A stretch of DNA of 37,142 nucleotides from the NCBI GenBank assembly GCA_902802265.1, contig CADCLN010000031.1, forward strand, positions 1 through 37,142, read 5' to 3'. The notes beneath the pieces are model-generated. The model did not search any database, was not told the DNA's origin, and was given only the letters and a program-made list of their open reading frames with translations. This stretch comes from an uncultured Bacteroidales bacterium (lineage in GTDB: Bacteria > Bacteroidota > Bacteroidia > Bacteroidales > Bacteroidaceae). A program made the position numbers and the translations under genes. Below, piece by piece: positions 23,059 to 30,306 of the stretch. Each line of letters opens with the position of its first letter. The first letter of the stretch is position 1.

Positions 23059-23832
23059 TTATTTGATGTTCGCGCGAATCTTTGTGAGGAATTGCTGCAT
23101 TCGGTCTTCGTCTTTGGTGTCGATGATGGCGATAATCTCTTTCATTTCGGCACGGATTTGCTCCACTTGGTCTTTGGTGTAGGGGTTGAACAGAATCTCG
23201 CGCAGCAGAGTGTCGTCTTCGCTGAGTACACCCTGGGCTATCTTCATGTGGCGCTTGAACGTGGTGCCTGGTGCGTCCTGGTGTTTCATCACGGCAGCAA
23301 AGGCAAAGGTGCTGATGAAGGGGATGCTCAGCGAGTATGCCACGGTGCGGTCGTGCTCGTCGAAGGTGTATTCGCAGATGTGGAGTTCCAGCCGCGAATA
23401 GAGTTCCTTGAAGAAGCAGCGAGCCATGAAGTCGCCTTCGTTGATGATGATGGCGTTCTCCGTGGAGAGTTTGCCCAGGTTGGCAAAAGTGGGGCCGAAC
23501 ATGGGGTGGGTGCTGACGTAGCGCATACCCGTCTTTTCGTAGTACGTCTTGAAACCTGTCTTCACGGACGAAATGTCGCTGAGGATACAGGTTGAAGGCA
23601 GGTGAGGAATCACTTGGTCAAACACCTGAAGGGTGTATTTCAGACTGACCGCATTGATGACCAGTTCGGGCTGGAAAGCATCAATTTCGTCTATTTGGGT
23701 AAATCGCTGGGCGTTGTACATGAAACGCAGTTTCCTGGCGTCGATGTCATAAACAGCCACTTCGTGTTCAAAGGAGAGCAGGTCGGTAAAGAAGGAACCC
23801 ATCTTGCCTGCTCCGAGAATCAATATCTTCAT
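23059..23832 (-). CDS. tyrA: Prephenate dehydrogenase
   Basis: A 257-residue NAD(P)-dependent enzyme converting prephenate to 4-hydroxyphenylpyruvate for tyrosine. The Rossmann start is MKILILGAGKMGSFFTDLL. ILSDISSVKTGF and STHPMFGPTFANLG are the catalytic and substrate-binding motifs of the TyrA family. A helical dimerisation domain follows. It lacks a C-terminal ACT domain. It is the fourth gene of the attenuator-controlled operon and starts 8 bp after the DAHP synthase gene. Confidence 0.92.
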   Translation of the reverse strand: MKILILGAGKMGSFFTDLLSFEHEVAVYDIDARKLRFMYNAQRFTQIDEIDAFQPELVINAVSLKYTLQVFDQVIPHLPSTCILSDISSVKTGFKTYYEKTGMRYVSTHPMFGPTFANLGKLSTENAIIINEGDFMARCFFKELYSRLELHICEYTFDEHDRTVAYSLSIPFISTFAFAAVMKHQDAPGTTFKRHMKIAQGVLSEDDTLLREILFNPYTKDQVEQIRAEMKEIIAIIDTKDEDRMQQFLTKIRANIK

Positions 23833-23840
23833 CTTCTCGT

Positions 23841-24905
23841 TTACTTGTTAATAACTTCTATTTGTTGATTGACACTCTCTTCATGGATTTGTTCAAAAAT
23901 CTTTTTCACGCAGTCCTGACCGATGCCGAGCAGAGCACCCTGTGCACCGCGCTTCTCCATGATTTCGTTGTAACGACTTGTCTGTACGACAGTCATGCCG
24001 TGCTCCTTTTTATACTGACCAATTTCGCGGCTGATGCGCATACGCTTGGCGAGGATATCGATGAGTTGGTTGTCTATTTCGTCAATCTGCTTGCGTAAAG
24101 CCCTGATGTTTTCGGTGGTTTGCATTTCCTCGCGGATGACGAGGATGCTGAGGATGTAGTCGAGCACATCGGGCGTTACCTGCTGCGGTGCATCGCTCCA
24201 AGCCTTTTCGGGGTCGCAGTGGCTCTCCACGATAAGTCCGTCCATGCCCATATCCATGGCCTGCTGACAGAGTGGGGCGATGAGGTCGCGGCGTCCGCTG
24301 ATGTGACTGGGGTCGCAGATGATGGGCAGGTCTGGAATGCGACGGTGCAGCTCAATGGGAATTTGCCACATGGGCAGGTTGCGGTAAATCTTCTTGTCGT
24401 AGCTGGAGAAACCGCGATGGATGGCTGCAAGTCGTTTGATGCCGGCACCATTGATGCGTTCCAGTCCACCAATCCACAGTTCAAGGTCGGGGTTGACGGG
24501 ATTCTTCACAAACACAGGATTGTCAATGCCACGCATGGCGTCGGCCAAAGCCTGTACGGCAAAGGGATTCGCTGTGGTTCGTGCACCGACCCACAGAATA
24601 TCGATACCGTATTTCAGCGCCAGTTCCACATGTTCGGGTGTGGCGACTTCGGTAGCGGTCAGCATTCCGGTTTCTTCTTTCACCTGCTTCATCCAGGGCA
24701 ATGCCTTCTCGCCGTTGCCTTCGAAGCCTCCAGGCTTGGTGCGTGGTTTCCACACACCGGCACGAAACATGTGGCAGCCTTTTTCTGCCAGTTGTCGGGC
24801 GGTTGTCATCACTTGCTCTTCTGTTTCGGCAGAGCAGGGGCCAGCGATTACGATGGGACGTTCATTGTCGCTGGGCAAATCCAGTTTCTTTAATTCTAAT
24901 TCCAT
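23841..24905 (-). CDS. Bifunctional DAHP synthase / chorismate mutase (AroQ type)
   Basis: A 354-residue fusion. Residues 1-260 are a type I-beta DAHP synthase: RPIVIAGPCSAETEEQV, FRAGVWKPRTKPGGFEG, WVGARTTANPFAVQ, PVFVKNP, PIICDPSHISGRRD and GLIVESHCDPEKAWSDA. It condenses PEP with erythrose-4-phosphate, the first shikimate step. Residues about 265-354 form an AroQ helical chorismate mutase (IRALRKQIDEIDNQLIDIL, RMRISREIGQYKK), which makes prephenate and probably conveys feedback inhibition. The start at MELELKKLDLP is chosen because an upstream in-frame ATG (24977) lies inside the preceding gene. The entry and branch steps of Phe/Tyr synthesis are thus in one polypeptide. Confidence 0.95.
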   Translation of the reverse strand: MELELKKLDLPSDNERPIVIAGPCSAETEEQVMTTARQLAEKGCHMFRAGVWKPRTKPGGFEGNGEKALPWMKQVKEETGMLTATEVATPEHVELALKYGIDILWVGARTTANPFAVQALADAMRGIDNPVFVKNPVNPDLELWIGGLERINGAGIKRLAAIHRGFSSYDKKIYRNLPMWQIPIELHRRIPDLPIICDPSHISGRRDLIAPLCQQAMDMGMDGLIVESHCDPEKAWSDAPQQVTPDVLDYILSILVIREEMQTTENIRALRKQIDEIDNQLIDILAKRMRISREIGQYKKEHGMTVVQTSRYNEIMEKRGAQGALLGIGQDCVKKIFEQIHEESVNQQIEVINK

Positions 24906-24957: not shown

Positions 24958-26130
24958 CTATTCCTTAGAGAAAACACTTTTTATTCGTTCAAGTGCCAGT
25001 TGCATCTTTTCGTCCTTGGCGCAGAGGCTGATGCGGATGTAGCGCTTGCCGTTGCTGCCGAAGATGAAGCCTGGGGCAATGAAGACGCGGGCTTCGTGCA
25101 ATACCCTTTCTGTCAAATCCTCCACGTCGGCAATGGTGTCGGGGATGCGTCCCCAGAGGAACATACCCTGCTGTGTGGGGTCGAAGGTGCAGCCCAGAGT
25201 GGTCATGATGTTCTCGGCAATCTTGCGGCGCGAAGCGTATGTCTCGATGTTAGCCTGTGTGTGCCAGGCATCAGAGTTGTCGTAAGCCTGTGCTGCTGCC
25301 AACTGCAAGGGACGGAAAGTGCCCGAATCAATGTTCGACTTGATCTTCAGAATCCACTGCACAAACGTGCTGTTGGTTGCCAACATGCCTACACGCCAAC
25401 CAGGCATGTTGTGGCTCTTCGACATGGAGTTGAACTCGATGCAGCACTCCTTGGCTCCTGGCACTTGCAGGATGCTCAGGTGTTCGTCGCGGTTCAGGAT
25501 GAAAGAGTAGGGGTTGTCGTTTACAATCACGATGTTGTGTTTGCGGGCAAAGTCAACCAGTCGCTGATACAACTGTCGTGTAGCTCTTCCCCCTGTAGGC
25601 ATGTTGGGGTAGTTCGTCCACATCAGTTTCACGCCGGTGAGGTCCATCTGTTCCAGCTGTTCAAAGTCGGGCTGCCAACCGTTCTGCTCCAGCAAGTCGT
25701 AGTTCACAATTTGCTGTCCCAGAATCTTGCTCAAAGCCGTGTAGGTGGGGTAGCCAGGGTTGGGCACCAGCACTTTGTCGCCAGGATTGCACAGTGCCAA
25801 TGTCACGTGCAGGATGCCTTCCTTCGAACCAATCAGCGGCTGAATCTCGGTGGCGGGGTCCAGTTCCACGCCATACCAGCGGCGATAGAATCCAGCCATG
25901 GCCTTGCGCAGTTCGGGTGTACCCACGGTGGGTTGATAGCCGTGTGTGTCTGGTCGGCGTGCCTGTTCGCAGAGCACATCGATGGTCTCCTTGCTGGGCG
26001 GCATGTCGGGACTGCCGATAGCCAGCGAAATAATGTCTTTGCCCTCAGCATTCAGCTGAGCCACTTCCTTGAGTTTTCTCGAAAAATAGTATTCGCTAAC
26101 GAGCGAAAGTCTGTCTGCGGGTTGTATCAT
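24958..26130 (-). CDS. Class I/II aminotransferase, probably aromatic (Phe/Tyr) aminotransferase
   Basis: A 390-residue PLP-dependent fold-type I aminotransferase. Visible motifs are ISLAIGSPDMPPS, HGYQPTVGTPELRKA, PLIGSKEGI, NPGYPTYTAL, TNYPNMPTGG, the PLP-lysine region FNSMSKSHNMPGWRVG, and an Arg carboxylate clamp near RYIRISLC. It starts 2 bp after pheA. Its place between prephenate dehydratase and DAHP synthase-chorismate mutase suggests it transaminates phenylpyruvate and hydroxyphenylpyruvate, or prephenate. Sequence alone cannot exclude aspartate or diaminopimelate-type activity. Confidence 0.88.
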   Translation of the reverse strand: MIQPADRLSLVSEYYFSRKLKEVAQLNAEGKDIISLAIGSPDMPPSKETIDVLCEQARRPDTHGYQPTVGTPELRKAMAGFYRRWYGVELDPATEIQPLIGSKEGILHVTLALCNPGDKVLVPNPGYPTYTALSKILGQQIVNYDLLEQNGWQPDFEQLEQMDLTGVKLMWTNYPNMPTGGRATRQLYQRLVDFARKHNIVIVNDNPYSFILNRDEHLSILQVPGAKECCIEFNSMSKSHNMPGWRVGMLATNSTFVQWILKIKSNIDSGTFRPLQLAAAQAYDNSDAWHTQANIETYASRRKIAENIMTTLGCTFDPTQQGMFLWGRIPDTIADVEDLTERVLHEARVFIAPGFIFGSNGKRYIRISLCAKDEKMQLALERIKSVFSKE

Positions 26131-26132
26131 AA

Positions 26133-26978
26133 TTATATTGTACTTTTTCCTTCCATGTATTCACCTAAAATCTTCAGCTGCTTGGTCAGTGGGCGCACGG
26201 CGTCGATGCTTTGGCGATAGCGTGTGTAGTCGTCGTGCATGATGTCGATATAGAACATATACTCCCATTCGCGTCCGATGATGGGCAGCGACTGGATTTT
26301 GGTGAGGTTTATCTTGTAAAACGAGAAGATGCTGAGCACTTGCGACAGGCTACCCTCGTTGTGGGGCAGGCTGAACACCAGACTGGCCTTGTTCGACTTT
26401 CTCGGATTGATAAGAGCTTCTGCCTGCCACGGGTCGCTCAGCACCAGGAAGCGTGTGAAGTTGTGCTTGTTCGTCTCGATGCCTTCTTCCAGCACCTTCA
26501 GTCCGTACAGTTCAGCTGCGGCTTTCGAGCAGATGGCTGCATGGCCCCTCAGTCCTCTTTCCTTGATTTTCTTGGCAGAACCAGCCGTGTCGCCCGTTTC
26601 CACCACTTTCAGGTCGGGGTGCTGCTGCAGGAACTCGCGGCACTGCATCAAAGCCACAGGGTGGGAGTTTACCTCCGTAATGCTGTCCCAGTCATCTTCG
26701 GGCAGACAAACAAACGAGTGCTTGATGCGCAGCTTGTGTTCGCCTACGACCTGCATACCGCTTTCGCGCAGCAGTTCATAGTTGTGGAGCAACGAACCGG
26801 CAATGGTGTTTTCGATGGCAACCAGCGCAATCACATTGCTGTCTGCCTTCATCTCCTTGAACACATCCTCGAAGGTTTCGCAGCAAACCAGTTCAATCTG
26901 CTCCAGTTCTCCGAAATAGCAGTGCGCTGCCACGTCGTGGTAACTGCCCACCTGTCCTTGTATCGCAATTCTTCTCAT
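26133..26978 (-). CDS. pheA: Prephenate dehydratase with ACT domain
   Basis: A 281-residue enzyme that converts prephenate to phenylpyruvate. The N-terminal catalytic lobes show IAIQGQVGSYHDVAA, VALVAIENTIAGSLLHNYELL, GEHKLRIKHSFVCLP, VETGDTAGSAKKI and AAICSKAAAELYGL. A C-terminal ACT domain begins SLVFSLPHNEGSLSQVL and contains the Phe-binding loop region LTKIQSLPIIGREWEYMFYID. It has no chorismate mutase domain. That activity is fused to DAHP synthase two genes on. It is the first structural gene after the attenuator, whose terminator ends about 15 bp before the ATG. Confidence 0.95.
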   Translation of the reverse strand: MRRIAIQGQVGSYHDVAAHCYFGELEQIELVCCETFEDVFKEMKADSNVIALVAIENTIAGSLLHNYELLRESGMQVVGEHKLRIKHSFVCLPEDDWDSITEVNSHPVALMQCREFLQQHPDLKVVETGDTAGSAKKIKERGLRGHAAICSKAAAELYGLKVLEEGIETNKHNFTRFLVLSDPWQAEALINPRKSNKASLVFSLPHNEGSLSQVLSIFSFYKINLTKIQSLPIIGREWEYMFYIDIMHDDYTRYRQSIDAVRPLTKQLKILGEYMEGKSTI

Positions 26979-26993
26979 TATATATATTGTATA

Positions 26994-27084
26994 AGAAAAA
27001 ATCCCACTCGTTCACGAGCGGGATTATCTTGTTTTTACTTCAATGATTCTTCTGCATTCTGGCACACATACTGAATACCCGCTC
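26994..27084 (-). promoter_or_regulatory. Transcription attenuator of the pheA operon (terminator and anti-terminator arms)
   Basis: On the minus strand the terminator is AATCCCGCTCG (27025-27015), loop TGAA, CGAGTGGGATT (27010-27000) and a U-rich tail. Upstream, GAGCGGGTATT (27084-27074) is complementary to the terminator's 5' arm AATCCCGCTC with one bulged base, so the two structures exclude each other. The anti-terminator arm starts only 4 nt after the leader-peptide stop codon. A ribosome that reaches the stop would cover it and let the terminator form. A ribosome stalled on the Tyr/Phe codons would leave it free and allow read-through into pheA. Confidence 0.88.
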
Positions 27085-27088
27085 TTAC

Positions 27089-27154
27089 TTATTTGCTAAA
27101 GTAAAAGTAAAAGTAAAAATATGTGCTGTACCAAGACTTCATTGTTCTTTGCAT
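27089..27154 (-). CDS. Tyr/Phe-rich leader peptide of the pheA operon
   Basis: A 21-codon frame from ATG 27154 to TAA 27089, beginning MQRTMKSWYST and continuing with four consecutive Tyr-Phe pairs before SK-stop. In total 5 Tyr and 4 Phe codons occur in 21, plus one Trp, and eight of them are contiguous (27098-27121). The start lies about 12 nt after the -7 promoter element, so the transcript has almost no leader before it. Composition, position and the downstream anti-terminator make this a classical attenuation peptide. It is too short for routine gene finding. The Tyr-Phe run is encoded by TTTTAC hexamers. Confidence 0.9.
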   Translation of the reverse strand: MQRTMKSWYSTYFYFYFYFSK

Positions 27155-27166
27155 TTTTTTCGGGTG

Positions 27167-27197
27167 CAAAATTACACATTCTTTGTCAAATACCAAA
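27167..27197 (-). promoter_or_regulatory. Promoter of the pheA operon
   Basis: On the minus strand TTTG (27197-27194), a 19-nt spacer and TAATTTTG (27174-27167) match the Bacteroidota TTTG-N19-TAnnTTTG consensus exactly. Of the promoters examined here it is the best match. Confidence 0.88.
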
Positions 27198-27268
27198 CTA
27201 TTTGCAAGAAAAAATGCTGCTTGCGCTGTAATTTTGGTTGTTTTTCTGTTTTTTTGTTTCACGTTTTG

Positions 27269-27276
27269 TATCTTTG
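27269..27276 (+). promoter_or_regulatory. -7 promoter element of the secreted Big2/Fib_succ_major gene
   Basis: TATCTTTG matches TAnnTTTG, 45 bp before the ATG at 27322. The -33 region is T-rich but has no clean TTTG at 19 nt. It is divergent from the pheA promoter about 70 bp away. Confidence 0.7.
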
Positions 27277-27321
27277 CAACCGAAATCAATAACAATTCAT
27301 CACATAAAAACATTAAATACA

Positions 27322-28608
27322 ATGAAAAATCTATGTCTTTCTGCGCTGCTCCTTGCAGCCACCGTGCTGACCTCAGCGGTCCAGGCACAAGTGATTAACG
27401 GAGACCTGAACCACAATCAAGGTCTCGATGTGGAAGATGTCACTTTGCTCATCGACGGCTACCTCACAGGTGCGTCCGAAGTCATCGAAACCAATTCCGA
27501 CTATTACAAGGTGGACAACAGCCTGATTGTGGGCACATGGTATGCCTCGAAAACCAGTTCCATCGTCTTCGAGGCAGACGGCACCTACGGCGGCGGATTT
27601 CCCTACAAGTTCATCCCTGCCCAGGGTGAAATCCTGATGTTCGACAACTACGGCAATGTCGTGGACGATTTCAGGGTGATCTATCTGACGGACGAAGTAA
27701 TGATCATCAAGCGGAACGATGGCACTTATCTGAAGATGACCCGCACCATTCCCCCTCAAAGGGTCACAAGCATCACCCTTTCTGCCACGGAACTTTCGCT
27801 GGCCCTTGACGGCTACGAAAAACTGACAGCCACAGTCCTGCCTTCCGATGCCGACAACCCCTCTGTGGTGTGGAGCAGTAGTGACGAAACGGTAGCCACA
27901 GTCAGTCAGAAAGGTATGGTGGAAGCCGTGGGCGAAGGCACAGCCACCATCACCTGCACCGCAGCCGACGGCAGCGGCGTACAGGCCATTTGCTCGGTAA
28001 CGGTCTACAAGCCATACTACAACAACGGCTATGAAGCGGTTGACCTCGGCCTCTCCGTGAAATGGGCAATCATGAACATCGGCGCAAATGCTCCCGAAGA
28101 GTCTGGAGACTACTTTGCCTGGGGAGAAACTGAACCGAAAGACAATTATAACTGGTATAACTGGGAAACCTATAAATGGTGCAAGGGCTCAAAAACAACC
28201 CTGACCAAATACTGCACCAATTCAGACTATGGCACCGTTGACAACAAGACCATTCTTGACTTGAAAGACGATGCAGCCCATGCCAACTGGGGTGGTACAT
28301 GGCGTATGCCCACCTTTGATGAATTTACGGAACTTCAGACGAAATGTAGTTGGAAGTGGACAACTCAGAATGGTGTGAACGGTCAGAAGGTGACAGGTCC
28401 GAATGGCAATTCCATTTTCTTGCCCGCTGCTGGGTATCGCTACGACAGTTCGTTTAGCCATGCGGGCAGCAGCGGCTACTATTGGTCGAGTTCGCTCTAC
28501 ACAGGTAGTCCGCTCTACGGGTGGTACTTGTACTTTAATCCGAGCAATTTCTACATGAACTACAACAGCCGTTACTACGGGCGAAGTGTTCGTGCTGTCT
28601 GCCAGTAG
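27322..28608 (+). CDS. Secreted protein: dockerin-like repeat, Big2 domain, Fib_succ_major (FISUMP) domain
   Basis: A 428-residue protein from ATG 27322 (MKNLCLSALLLAATVLTSAVQAQ signal peptide). An earlier in-frame ATG precedes the promoter. One dockerin-like unit (GDLNHNQGLDVEDVTLLIDGYL) lies at residues 25-48. A lipocalin-like stretch (VGTWYASKTSSIVFEADGTY) spans roughly residues 60-140. A Big2 immunoglobulin-like domain spans residues 147-228 (VTSITLSATELSL, VVWSSSDETVATVSQKG). A Fib_succ_major domain spans residues 229-428 (AVDLGLSVKWAIMNIGA, FAWGE, WRMPTFDEF, LPAAGYR, GYYWSSS, GRSVRAVCQ). It is probably a surface or extracellular binding protein. The last 58 residues are Tyr/Ser-rich, and the gene is followed by copy B of the 500-bp repeat. 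Confidence 0.85.
   Translation: MKNLCLSALLLAATVLTSAVQAQVINGDLNHNQGLDVEDVTLLIDGYLTGASEVIETNSDYYKVDNSLIVGTWYASKTSSIVFEADGTYGGGFPYKFIPAQGEILMFDNYGNVVDDFRVIYLTDEVMIIKRNDGTYLKMTRTIPPQRVTSITLSATELSLALDGYEKLTATVLPSDADNPSVVWSSSDETVATVSQKGMVEAVGEGTATITCTAADGSGVQAICSVTVYKPYYNNGYEAVDLGLSVKWAIMNIGANAPEESGDYFAWGETEPKDNYNWYNWETYKWCKGSKTTLTKYCTNSDYGTVDNKTILDLKDDAAHANWGGTWRMPTFDEFTELQTKCSWKWTTQNGVNGQKVTGPNGNSIFLPAAGYRYDSSFSHAGSSGYYWSSSLYTGSPLYGWYLYFNPSNFYMNYNSRYYGRSVRAVCQ
28432..28605 (+). other. Candidate hypervariable region at the C-terminus of the FISUMP domain
   Basis: The final 58 codons contain 12 Tyr and 12 Ser, many as TAC and AGC/AGT codons. They sit on a conserved frame (GYR, GYYWSSS, YFN, GRSVRAV) typical of C-type-lectin-fold variable regions. 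TAC, AGC, GAC and GGC can all arise from AAC by adenine mutagenesis. No reverse transcriptase or template repeat is present in this window, so this is only a resemblance. Confidence 0.4.
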
Positions 28609-29262: not shown

Positions 29263-30306
29263 TTATCCTTCGCGGAAAAAGTCAAGCATCTCGTAGATTT
29301 CGTCTTGTGTGGCTGTCTGGTTGATGCGGATATCGCCAATGTCGGCAAGCAGGGTGAAGTTGATGCTGCCTGCTGTGTTCTTCTTGTCGTGGGTCATCAG
29401 TTGGTAGAGTTCGGGGTAGTCGTCGCAAGTGATGGGCAATGATCCGTAATGTTCACGGACGAAGCGGACAGTCTGACGCATTCGGTCGGTGGGGAAGTGG
29501 GTCTTGGTGCAGGAAAGATAGAGTTCGCAGATGAGTCCCCATGCTACGGCATAGCCGTGGAGGACGGGGTGGCGAGTGAGTGTCCAGCTTTCAAAGGCGT
29601 GTCCGGCGGTGTGACCCAGGTTGAGGGCTTTGCGGATGCCGTGCTCTAAGGGGTCTTCGGTGACGATGCGTTCCTTGACGGCGACGCTGGTGCCGACCAT
29701 GTTGGCAAGGTGCTGATAATCTATGTGGTCGAGGTCGAAGTTGAGCAATTCTGCCCAATGTTCCGTGGTGGAGATCAGTCCGTGTTTCAGCATTTCGGCA
29801 TAGCCCGAAAGGATATTTTGGTGGTCGAGCGTGCGCAGGAAAGTGGTGTCGATGAGGACGCAATGAGGTTGGCTGAACACGCCGATTTCGTTTTTCAGTC
29901 CGCCAAAGTTGATGCCCGTTTTTCCGCCCACACTGGCATCGACCATGGAGAGCAGGGTGGTGGGTATGTTGATGTATTGAATACCCCGTTTGAAGGTGCT
30001 GGCAGCAAAGCCGCCGAGGTCGGTGACCATGCCGCCGCCGAGGTTGATGAGAAGGCTGTGGCGTGTGCCGCCGTGCTGGCTCAGTTCTGTCCAGACATGA
30101 GAGAGTGTGTCGAGTGTCTTGTGGGTATCGGTAGCTCCGATGGTGATGAGGGTTGTGTCTTGCAGACAAGGGAGGTCGGCCATGACGGGCAGGCAGAGTT
30201 GGCGGGTAGTTTCGTCGCAGAGCAGGAAACGTTTGTCGTGTTCGATTTCGCCGATTTGCTGTGTCAGCAAGGTGCGAATGTCGGTGGAAATGATGACCTT
30301 GTTCAT
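29263..30306 (-). CDS. aroB: 3-Dehydroquinate synthase
   Basis: A 347-residue NAD- and metal-dependent enzyme that cyclises DAHP to 3-dehydroquinate, the second shikimate step. It acts directly on the product of the DAHP synthase encoded at 23841. Motifs are LINLGGGMVTDLGGFAASTFKRGI, INIPTTLLSMVDASVGGKTGIN, the metal-ligand region SGYAEMLKHGLI and NLGHTAGHAFE. Its length fits Bacteroidota AroB. It is divergent from rfbC with a TACCTTTG element (complement of 30318-30325) just before the start. It lies 2 kb from the Phe/Tyr operon but is separately transcribed. Confidence 0.96.
   Translation of the reverse strand: MNKVIISTDIRTLLTQQIGEIEHDKRFLLCDETTRQLCLPVMADLPCLQDTTLITIGATDTHKTLDTLSHVWTELSQHGGTRHSLLINLGGGMVTDLGGFAASTFKRGIQYINIPTTLLSMVDASVGGKTGINFGGLKNEIGVFSQPHCVLIDTTFLRTLDHQNILSGYAEMLKHGLISTTEHWAELLNFDLDHIDYQHLANMVGTSVAVKERIVTEDPLEHGIRKALNLGHTAGHAFESWTLTRHPVLHGYAVAWGLICELYLSCTKTHFPTDRMRQTVRFVREHYGSLPITCDDYPELYQLMTHDKKNTAGSINFTLLADIGDIRINQTATQDEIYEMLDFFREG

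Follow-up and report, generated by a model that had tools for sequence, protein, structure and literature searches.

A putative leader-peptide attenuator with Tyr and Phe codons upstream of the pheA operon in Bacteroidia

The region upstream of pheA in a 37,142-nucleotide stretch of DNA from an uncultured Bacteroidales bacterium, whose full length is referred to as the window, most probably constitutes a ribosome-mediated transcription attenuator controlled by a leader peptide. In this reading, to which we assign a probability of roughly 0.9, the operon encoding pheA, an aminotransferase, a DAHP synthase/chorismate mutase fusion and tyrA would be read through when either charged tRNA-Phe or charged tRNA-Tyr becomes scarce. 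The elements of the device, their conservation and the co-variation of its antiterminator (2:3) and terminator (3:4) stems can be followed in the sequences, the switch between both stems is computed from folding, and from these properties we infer the stalling of ribosomes, the termination of transcription and the sensing of amino acids in the cell. A preliminary description of the same DNA had proposed a Phe/Tyr attenuator at this place, and our analysis supports this proposal by the conservation of the leader, compensatory changes in the stems, the predicted folding switch and the identity of the genes in the operon.

Results

Organization of the putative attenuator region

The attenuator is located on the minus strand between positions 27197 and 26994, where a promoter, a leader ORF, an arm and a terminator follow each other ahead of pheA, and it is thus placed between this gene and a divergent ORF on the plus strand (27238-28608; Table 1). 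The promoter that had been suggested for this region is present at 27197-27167 and consists of TTTG and TAATTTTG with a spacing of 19 nucleotides, corresponding to TTTG and TAnnTTTG, which we take to be the -33 and -7 motifs of promoters in Bacteroidota. In relatives, TAnnTTTG is found in the 110 nt preceding the leader ATG in 73 of 97 loci (compared to 8.4% of shuffled sequences), and in 61 of the 97 it is accompanied by TTTG or TTG at a distance of 17-22 nt farther upstream. Transcription would consequently start near 27160, with the promoter presumably being used in the cell.

Table 1. Features of the attenuator and the operon in the window.
Feature	Positions	Strand	Basis
-33 promoter element TTTG	27194..27197	-	sequence
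-7 promoter element TAATTTTG	27167..27174	-	sequence
Leader ORF from first ATG (27154), 21 codons, MQRTMKSWYSTYFYFYFYFSK and stop	27089..27154	-	sequence
Conserved leader ORF from second ATG (27142), 17 codons, MKSWYSTYFYFYFYFSK and stop	27089..27142	-	alignment of relatives
Control codons TAT TTT TAC TTT TAC TTT TAC TTT (Tyr-Phe, four times), region 1	27098..27121	-	sequence; Tyr/Phe-rich run kept in relatives
Antiterminator arm GAGCGGG, region 2	27078..27084	-	pairs with 27022-27016
Terminator 5' half AATCCCGCTCG, region 3	27015..27025	-	sequence, folding, terminator scan
Terminator 3' half CGAGTGGGATT (region 4, 27010-27000) and T run (27001-26996)	26996..27010	-	sequence, folding
Protector hairpin (1:2) formed by the control codons and the arm region	27066..27124	-	folding, -15.1 kcal/mol
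pheA, prephenate dehydratase	26133..26978	-	Pfam PF00800, 188 bits; ATG at 26978
Aminotransferase class I/II	24958..26130	-	Pfam PF00155
DAHP synthase - chorismate mutase fusion	23841..24905	-	Pfam PF00793 and PF01817
tyrA, prephenate dehydrogenase	23059..23832	-	Pfam PF02153, 39.8 bits

The leader had been described as an ORF of 21 codons with nine codons for Tyr or Phe, eight of which are consecutive. The codons are indeed present, but the start that is kept in relatives is the second in-frame ATG, which defines a leader of 17 codons, and the first ATG has no counterpart at the same position in the remaining 42 rows of an alignment of 43 sequences inspected by eye. Within the control codons, the region 27101-27118 consists of three perfect tandem copies of TTTTAC, where slippage could alter the number of Tyr and Phe codons. 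The leader terminates with TAA (27091-27089) and is followed, after a gap of 4 nt, by the arm GAGCGGG, to which CCCGCTC in the terminator is exactly complementary. The position of the arm beyond the stop and its pairing with the 5' half of the terminator thus agree with what had been claimed, although the bulge-free part of this pairing is limited to these seven bases. The expected GC-rich terminator with its U-tail, AATCCCGCTCG-TGAA-CGAGTGGGATT with the subsequent T run (27025-26996), is found 17 nt ahead of pheA and contains a stem of 11 base pairs and six T, with a folding energy of -16.8 kcal/mol. A terminator scan of the region 26900-27400 returned 2 sites, compared to 0.3 per shuffle, the second of which is the same hairpin read on the opposite strand. 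At one position, the terminator uses a G-U pair, as it does in 19 of the 43 alignment rows with the window included, and because of this pair the arm GAGCGGG is, within the seven-base stretch, a better match to region 3 than is region 4 (GAGUGGG). An additional element, which had escaped the preliminary description, is the pairing of the Tyr/Phe codons with the arm region in a 1:2 hairpin. The structure of the leader as a whole is beyond chance, with a z-score of -4.4 for the folding of 186 nt.

From these elements, a mechanism can be proposed in which the ribosome would decide between the two stems. If both charged tRNAs were ample, the ribosome would translate the Tyr/Phe codons up to the stop and cover the arm beyond, and with the arm being covered, the 3:4 terminator would form ahead of pheA. 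If either of the charged tRNAs was short, the ribosome would stall on its codons and break the 1:2 hairpin, thereby leaving the arm free to pair with the 5' half of the terminator once this has been made, and the polymerase would continue into the operon. Without any translation of the leader, the arm would be held in the 1:2 hairpin and transcription would stop.

The operon downstream contains, according to Pfam, the first step of the pathway (DAHP synthase) and the branches to Phe and Tyr without the intervening shikimate steps. While the identities of its genes fit the previous assignment, its portrayal as a pathway from PEP and erythrose-4-phosphate to the final transamination was thus too wide, as the middle shikimate steps are missing. 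A leader reading both Tyr and Phe codons fits an operon of this content. All four genes are found on one strand in 72 of 80 named loci, and the remaining eight contain fewer partners in the DNA examined. An ORF on the minus strand (29263-30306), which in our assumption resembles the shikimate-pathway gene aroB encoding 3-dehydroquinate synthase, is located about 2.1 kb from the attenuator, with a gene on the opposite strand in between.

As would be expected for termination by the 3:4 hairpin, a run of 4-8 T follows the stem in 28 of the 35 loci of the same genus, including the window; L027 does not match the T-run pattern, yet it contains five T after the stem. In six of the 35 loci (L006 and L031-L035) the hairpin and the arm are kept with only two T following, and about 20 nt separate the end of the hairpin from pheA. 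In these loci, where termination may have been lost or changed, or where regulation may have shifted to translational control, an ordinary intrinsic terminator is doubtful. These six loci would also suit an explanation in which the leader and the 3:4 hairpin gate the access of ribosomes to pheA, with the T run not being essential. As a general account we consider such translational control to be improbable, since the 4-8 T found in the window and in 27 other loci of the genus are what would be expected for an intrinsic terminator and since the distance between hairpin and pheA varies between 9 and 49 nt in the 34 loci of the genus that were matched.

Conservation of the leader and co-variation of its stems

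To define a leader, we have used the presence of a small ORF upstream of pheA that starts with ATG and that contains at least six Tyr/Phe residues in nine codons. Such an ORF is found in all 35 loci of the same genus including the window, in all 11 loci from other families of the order, in 52 of 55 loci sampled from the class, in 76 of 78 named contigs (a set that overlaps with the loci of the same genus) and in five of 34 loci outside the class. The class sample was picked by hand from the listed matches with about one locus per genus; it is not random and biased towards higher PheA scores. One locus at a contig end (L044) and two named loci with less than 180 nt of upstream sequence were dropped before counting. 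The leader was found in none of eight genomes of the class encoding a divergent PheA with 30-32% identity to that of the window. Among the misses in the class sample, L190 contains a leader with a GTG start, and in L174 and L177 there is no leader within 900 nt and another reading frame extends up to pheA. On the named contig L106, no leader was detected within the stretch examined. In L155, also counted as a miss among the named contigs, the Tyr/Phe codons, the arm and the terminator are kept, and there is no ORF of 8-50 codons starting with ATG, GTG or TTG that would span these codons; its leader might have decayed, might use an unusual start or might be affected by a sequencing error. If ATG, GTG and TTG are all permitted as starts, 180 of 213 sequences upstream of pheA, combined from overlapping sets that include those outside the class, reach a score of at least six, compared to 7 of 213 reverse complements and 20 of 1065 shuffled sequences.

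The order and number of Tyr and Phe residues vary and the remainder of the peptide differs between families. Only one of 56 genus representatives has no Tyr in its leader. This Phe-only leader (MTRFFTHFFFFFTQQ) belongs to L036/L217 (G054), where 6.1 kb of DNA revealed no operon gene besides pheA and where PheA is 63% identical to that of the window, compared to at most 50% in other genomes of its family. Four loci from a single family (L237, L238, L244 and L246) retain Tyr in the leader, with no tyrA found in the approximately 6 kb examined. The idea that the composition of the leader would track the content of the operon, for which there is one Phe-only case against four genomes keeping Tyr with no tyrA found nearby, is thus treated as anecdotal. 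In L041 and L047, inspection by eye revealed two tandem stretches coding for Tyr and Phe before pheA, and a hairpin-like sequence with a T run comes after each of them.

The arm and the 5' half of the terminator have changed together between genera, as illustrated by the pairs GAGCGGG/CCCGCTC in the window, GGCAGGA/TCCTGCC in L052, GACCGGGA/TCCCGGTC in L040, CGAGGCTT/AAGCCTCG in L046 and GCCGGGACT/AGTCCCGGC in L070. Summed over 56 genus representatives, the score for cognate pairing amounts to 1107, compared to 796 (sd 22) after re-pairing, with none of 5000 re-pairings reaching a value as high. Compared to shuffled arm regions, the cognate arm scores with p ≤ 0.05 in 45 of 56 genera; with genera considered singly, no more than 20 of 56 have their cognate arm within the top 5% of non-cognate arms, which probably results from the CCCG type of terminator that many genera have in common. 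In an alignment of 43 rows, composed of the window and a manual selection of 42 out of 72 distinct named loci from its wider kin, 99.3% of the cells in the 2:3 stem are paired with two pairs changed on both sides, and the equivalent values for the 3:4 stem are 92.8% and six pairs. Some Bacteroides and Phocaeicola loci in which the terminator was misassigned by the finder (such as L119, L123, L142 and L152) were excluded from this alignment, the misassigned L049 was kept in the test of 56 genera and counted as a miss, and the counts for co-variation, folding of genera and geometry omit loci in which no terminator was found.

Homologous loci that either lack the leader ORF or contain uncompensated changes breaking both stems had been named in advance as evidence against the attenuator. 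Instead, the Tyr/Phe ORF is kept across relatives, and both the 2:3 and the 3:4 stem continue to pair by means of compensatory changes. As judged from the alignments, the antiterminator stem is mutually exclusive with the terminator and conserved by compensatory change. A peptide rich in Tyr and Phe that is kept across families could also be the product of an unrelated gene for a small protein, which is followed by a constitutive partial terminator without any coupling between both. This explanation appears very unlikely in light of the variable order and number of Tyr and Phe residues and the difference in the rest of the peptide, and because an arm past the codons that co-varies with the terminator would be needless if both were separate.

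Predicted folding switch

The attenuator mechanism requires that the position of the ribosome determines which stem is formed, and the preliminary description had predicted, from the geometry, read-through at low levels of charged tRNA-Phe or tRNA-Tyr. Folding with the ribosome placed at different codons, assuming a footprint whose downstream edge extends 14 nt past the occupied codon, gives such a switch. For the window, at the moment when the polymerase has just completed the 5' half of the terminator, the calculated P(2:3) amounts to 0 if no ribosome is present, the arm being sequestered in the 1:2 hairpin, and to 1.0 if a ribosome has stalled at control codon 1, 4 or 7. A ribosome that has reached the stop covers the arm, and P(3:4) is then calculated as 1.0. 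Once the terminator is complete, the 3:4 stem wins at equilibrium in every state including the stalled one, and the switch must therefore be kinetic, with 2:3 forming first and lasting while the polymerase passes; it presumably persists long enough for this passage.

In the equivalent calculations for other genera, a stalled ribosome leads to P(2:3) of at least 0.5 in 55 of 56 cases. The geometry was compared in 54 of the 56 genus representatives, after two with an arm score under 14 were dropped. In these, 7-24 nt separate the nine-codon core from the start of the arm, and the stop of the leader is located between -8 and +31 nt from the start of the arm. The first base of the stop lies upstream of the arm in 11 of the 54 representatives and downstream of the first arm base in the other 43, and the arm thus resides wholly or partly inside the coding sequence of the leader in most genera. 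In loci of the same genus, the stop is found just before the arm in 28 of 29 cases. The geometry and the folding are consistent with an arm that would be freed by a stall and covered by completed translation. If the stop is far beyond the arm, a ribosome residing at the stop would cover the arm only in part or not at all.

Without a ribosome, P(2:3) is below 0.5 in 13 of 56 genera, 18 of 29 loci of the same genus and 25 of 69 named loci. The inner nine pairs of the 1:2 hairpin are formed to 95.8% over 27 loci, in which counting of pairs showed no co-variation, and RNAalifold did not return a consensus for this hairpin in the alignment of 43 loci. If folded without the terminator, the mean pairing between arm and codon region is 0.66, compared to 0.41 in shuffled sequences, and 27 of 56 genera exceed at least 19 of 20 shuffles. 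A general role of the 1:2 hairpin as protector was nevertheless rejected, since 2:3 remains below 0.5 in only 13 of 56 genera once the 5' half of the terminator competes. Together with the absent co-variation, this value suggests that an effective 1:2 hairpin is a feature of only the genus of the window and some others. Not every ribosome-mediated attenuator contains a protector hairpin. In Phocaeicola vulgatus (L117), the calculated P(2:3) without a ribosome is 0.97, and the folding thus predicts that an untranslated leader would terminate by default in the species of the window and be read through by default in P. vulgatus.

Evolutionary history

A tree of PheA with 79 rows, from which L296 and loci with upstream sequence only were left out, places 44 leader-bearing rows of the class, including the window, in a single group with a support of 100/95. 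All five rows from outside the class that bear a leader belong to the same group, as do three closely related rows in which no leader was found. Of the five, two (G216 and G447) are nested inside a family of the class with a support of at least 98/90, which suggests that the operon has moved along with its leader. Seven divergent rows of the class without leader form a separate group, which has to be regarded with caution as long branches meet there. A search for plasmids with the DNA of the leader gave no match.

Taken together, these observations permit a tentative view, which we rate at somewhat less than an even chance, where Bacteroidia would hold an old Tyr/Phe attenuator of the pheA operon that was for the most part passed on vertically. 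Across most lineages this would be a stripped-down version that is on by default, with no effective protector, an arm inside the coding sequence of the leader and termination caused only by a ribosome running through the arm, the genus of the window would have turned to a default-off version by strengthening the protector, and the device would have moved with the operon outside the class. If true, the device implies a tight coupling of transcription and translation in Bacteroidota. Bacteria of this phylum hardly use Shine-Dalgarno sequences.

Leaders of other amino-acid operons

Small ORFs rich in Trp were observed near TrpE in the genome of the window itself (L331, G000:C22) and in L329, L330, L332-L334, L337 and L338. 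The ORF of L331 (MKRNNSTYWRWQSLGFKIIVS) contains only two Trp in nine codons, and WWW is found in seven of the 11 TrpE loci examined. These ORFs are located about 1.4-1.5 kb upstream of the TrpE domain, except for L329 where the distance is 210 nt. The trp operon of this genome probably has a leader of its own, although the Bacteroid-trp model fails to match it. An ORF rich in His (MKLYTSHHGHHHFLQ) is found in L326 at 332 nt upstream of the match to HisG and, less certainly, MHHHQHQFF is encoded 1.4 kb upstream of HisG in L318. At the HisG locus of the own genome (L319), there is no His-rich ORF, with the best candidate containing 2 His in nine codons. An equivalent test for threonine leaders was uninformative, as the matched domain lies far inside the gene.

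Discussion

Bacteroidia are a major group of bacteria in the gut and the environment, in which our analysis has described a widespread candidate device for regulating the synthesis of aromatic amino acids, one that was missed at the thresholds of Rfam 15. Since attenuation works only if the ribosome closely trails the RNA polymerase, such leaders would make the coupling of both processes in Bacteroidota directly testable. Natural variants, which differ in the effectiveness of the protector and in the location of the stop before or after the arm, or which combine a Phe-only leader with a lone pheA, offer ready predictions.

The pheA attenuator of E. coli has 1:2, 2:3 and 3:4 pairings and its leader contains exclusively Phe as control residue. 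The candidate described here resembles the enterobacterial system in the leader peptide, the three pairings and the T-tailed terminator before pheA, and it differs in the mixture of Tyr and Phe in the peptide, in an operon that serves both amino acids and in a promoter of the Bacteroidota type. Leaders that sense more than one of the amino acids made by their operon are familiar from ilvGMEDA and thrABC, which are similar to the window in this respect but concern other amino acids, operons and a different phylum. A scan of the window with Rfam, including the models for T-boxes and riboswitches, gave nothing at gathering score, and the enterobacterial family Phe_leader (RF01859) matches over its full length with 29.4 bits at a cut-off of 55. 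A T-box, a riboswitch or a protein-binding leader that senses the amino acid or tRNA directly, as a long and structured 5' region (z = -4.4) might imply, is thus the least probable of the explanations considered, with no Rfam family reaching its gathering score anywhere in the window and a family of leader peptides providing the best match below threshold. For the leader-peptide attenuator, a search of 149 genomes of Bacteroidia with Phe_leader found none above the cut-off, with E. coli as positive control, and weak matches (E ≤ 0.001) in 45 of 149. Five genomes with weak matches were compared to the known place of pheA, and the match is directly upstream in G206 and not in G062, G290, G140 and G089.

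The Bacteroid-trp RNA acts in attenuation. This family (RF01692) differs from our candidate as its name refers to the Trp operon, and it has no match in the window or its genome and exceeds the cut-off in one of 31 genomes searched. PMC2864571 tables it as a motif of Bacteroidetes that is likely an RNA and likely cis-regulatory, and additionally lists a Leu/phe leader for Lactococcus and, for Actinobacteria, a pheA motif of uncertain status. According to PMC7366714, which makes no mention of pheA, long 5' UTRs of B. thetaiotaomicron contain small ORFs that are reminiscent of leader peptides. Excerpts of PMC2965389 provide the view of 2010, and those of PMC4833913 statistics on the spacing between leader and gene. 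In the sections accessible, neither PMC13323073 on coupling nor PMC8305728 on his genes nor PMC4833913 contains anything on attenuation in Bacteroidota, and a pheA attenuator of Bacteroidales is not described in the accessible parts of the open-licence literature searched.

The closest precedent is found in Flavobacterium psychrophilum, where the available part of a transcriptome study from 2021 reports a structured 5' element upstream of pheA, which occurs in other genera of Flavobacteriaceae and is absent from Rfam, together with strong clues for leader-peptide attenuation before amino-acid operons (PMC9723704). This element shares with our candidate the gene, the phylum, the structured 5' region and the lack of a hit in Rfam. 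In the same part of the study, it is described without peptide, codons or pairing, so that the likeness is one of description, and its occurrence is given for other genera of Flavobacteriaceae only (PMC9723704). As far as its features can be judged from sequence, the attenuator of the window thus represents a known mechanism that was partly anticipated for Flavobacteriaceae, that is by its score not a member of Phe_leader in Rfam and that is widespread in the Bacteroidia sampled.
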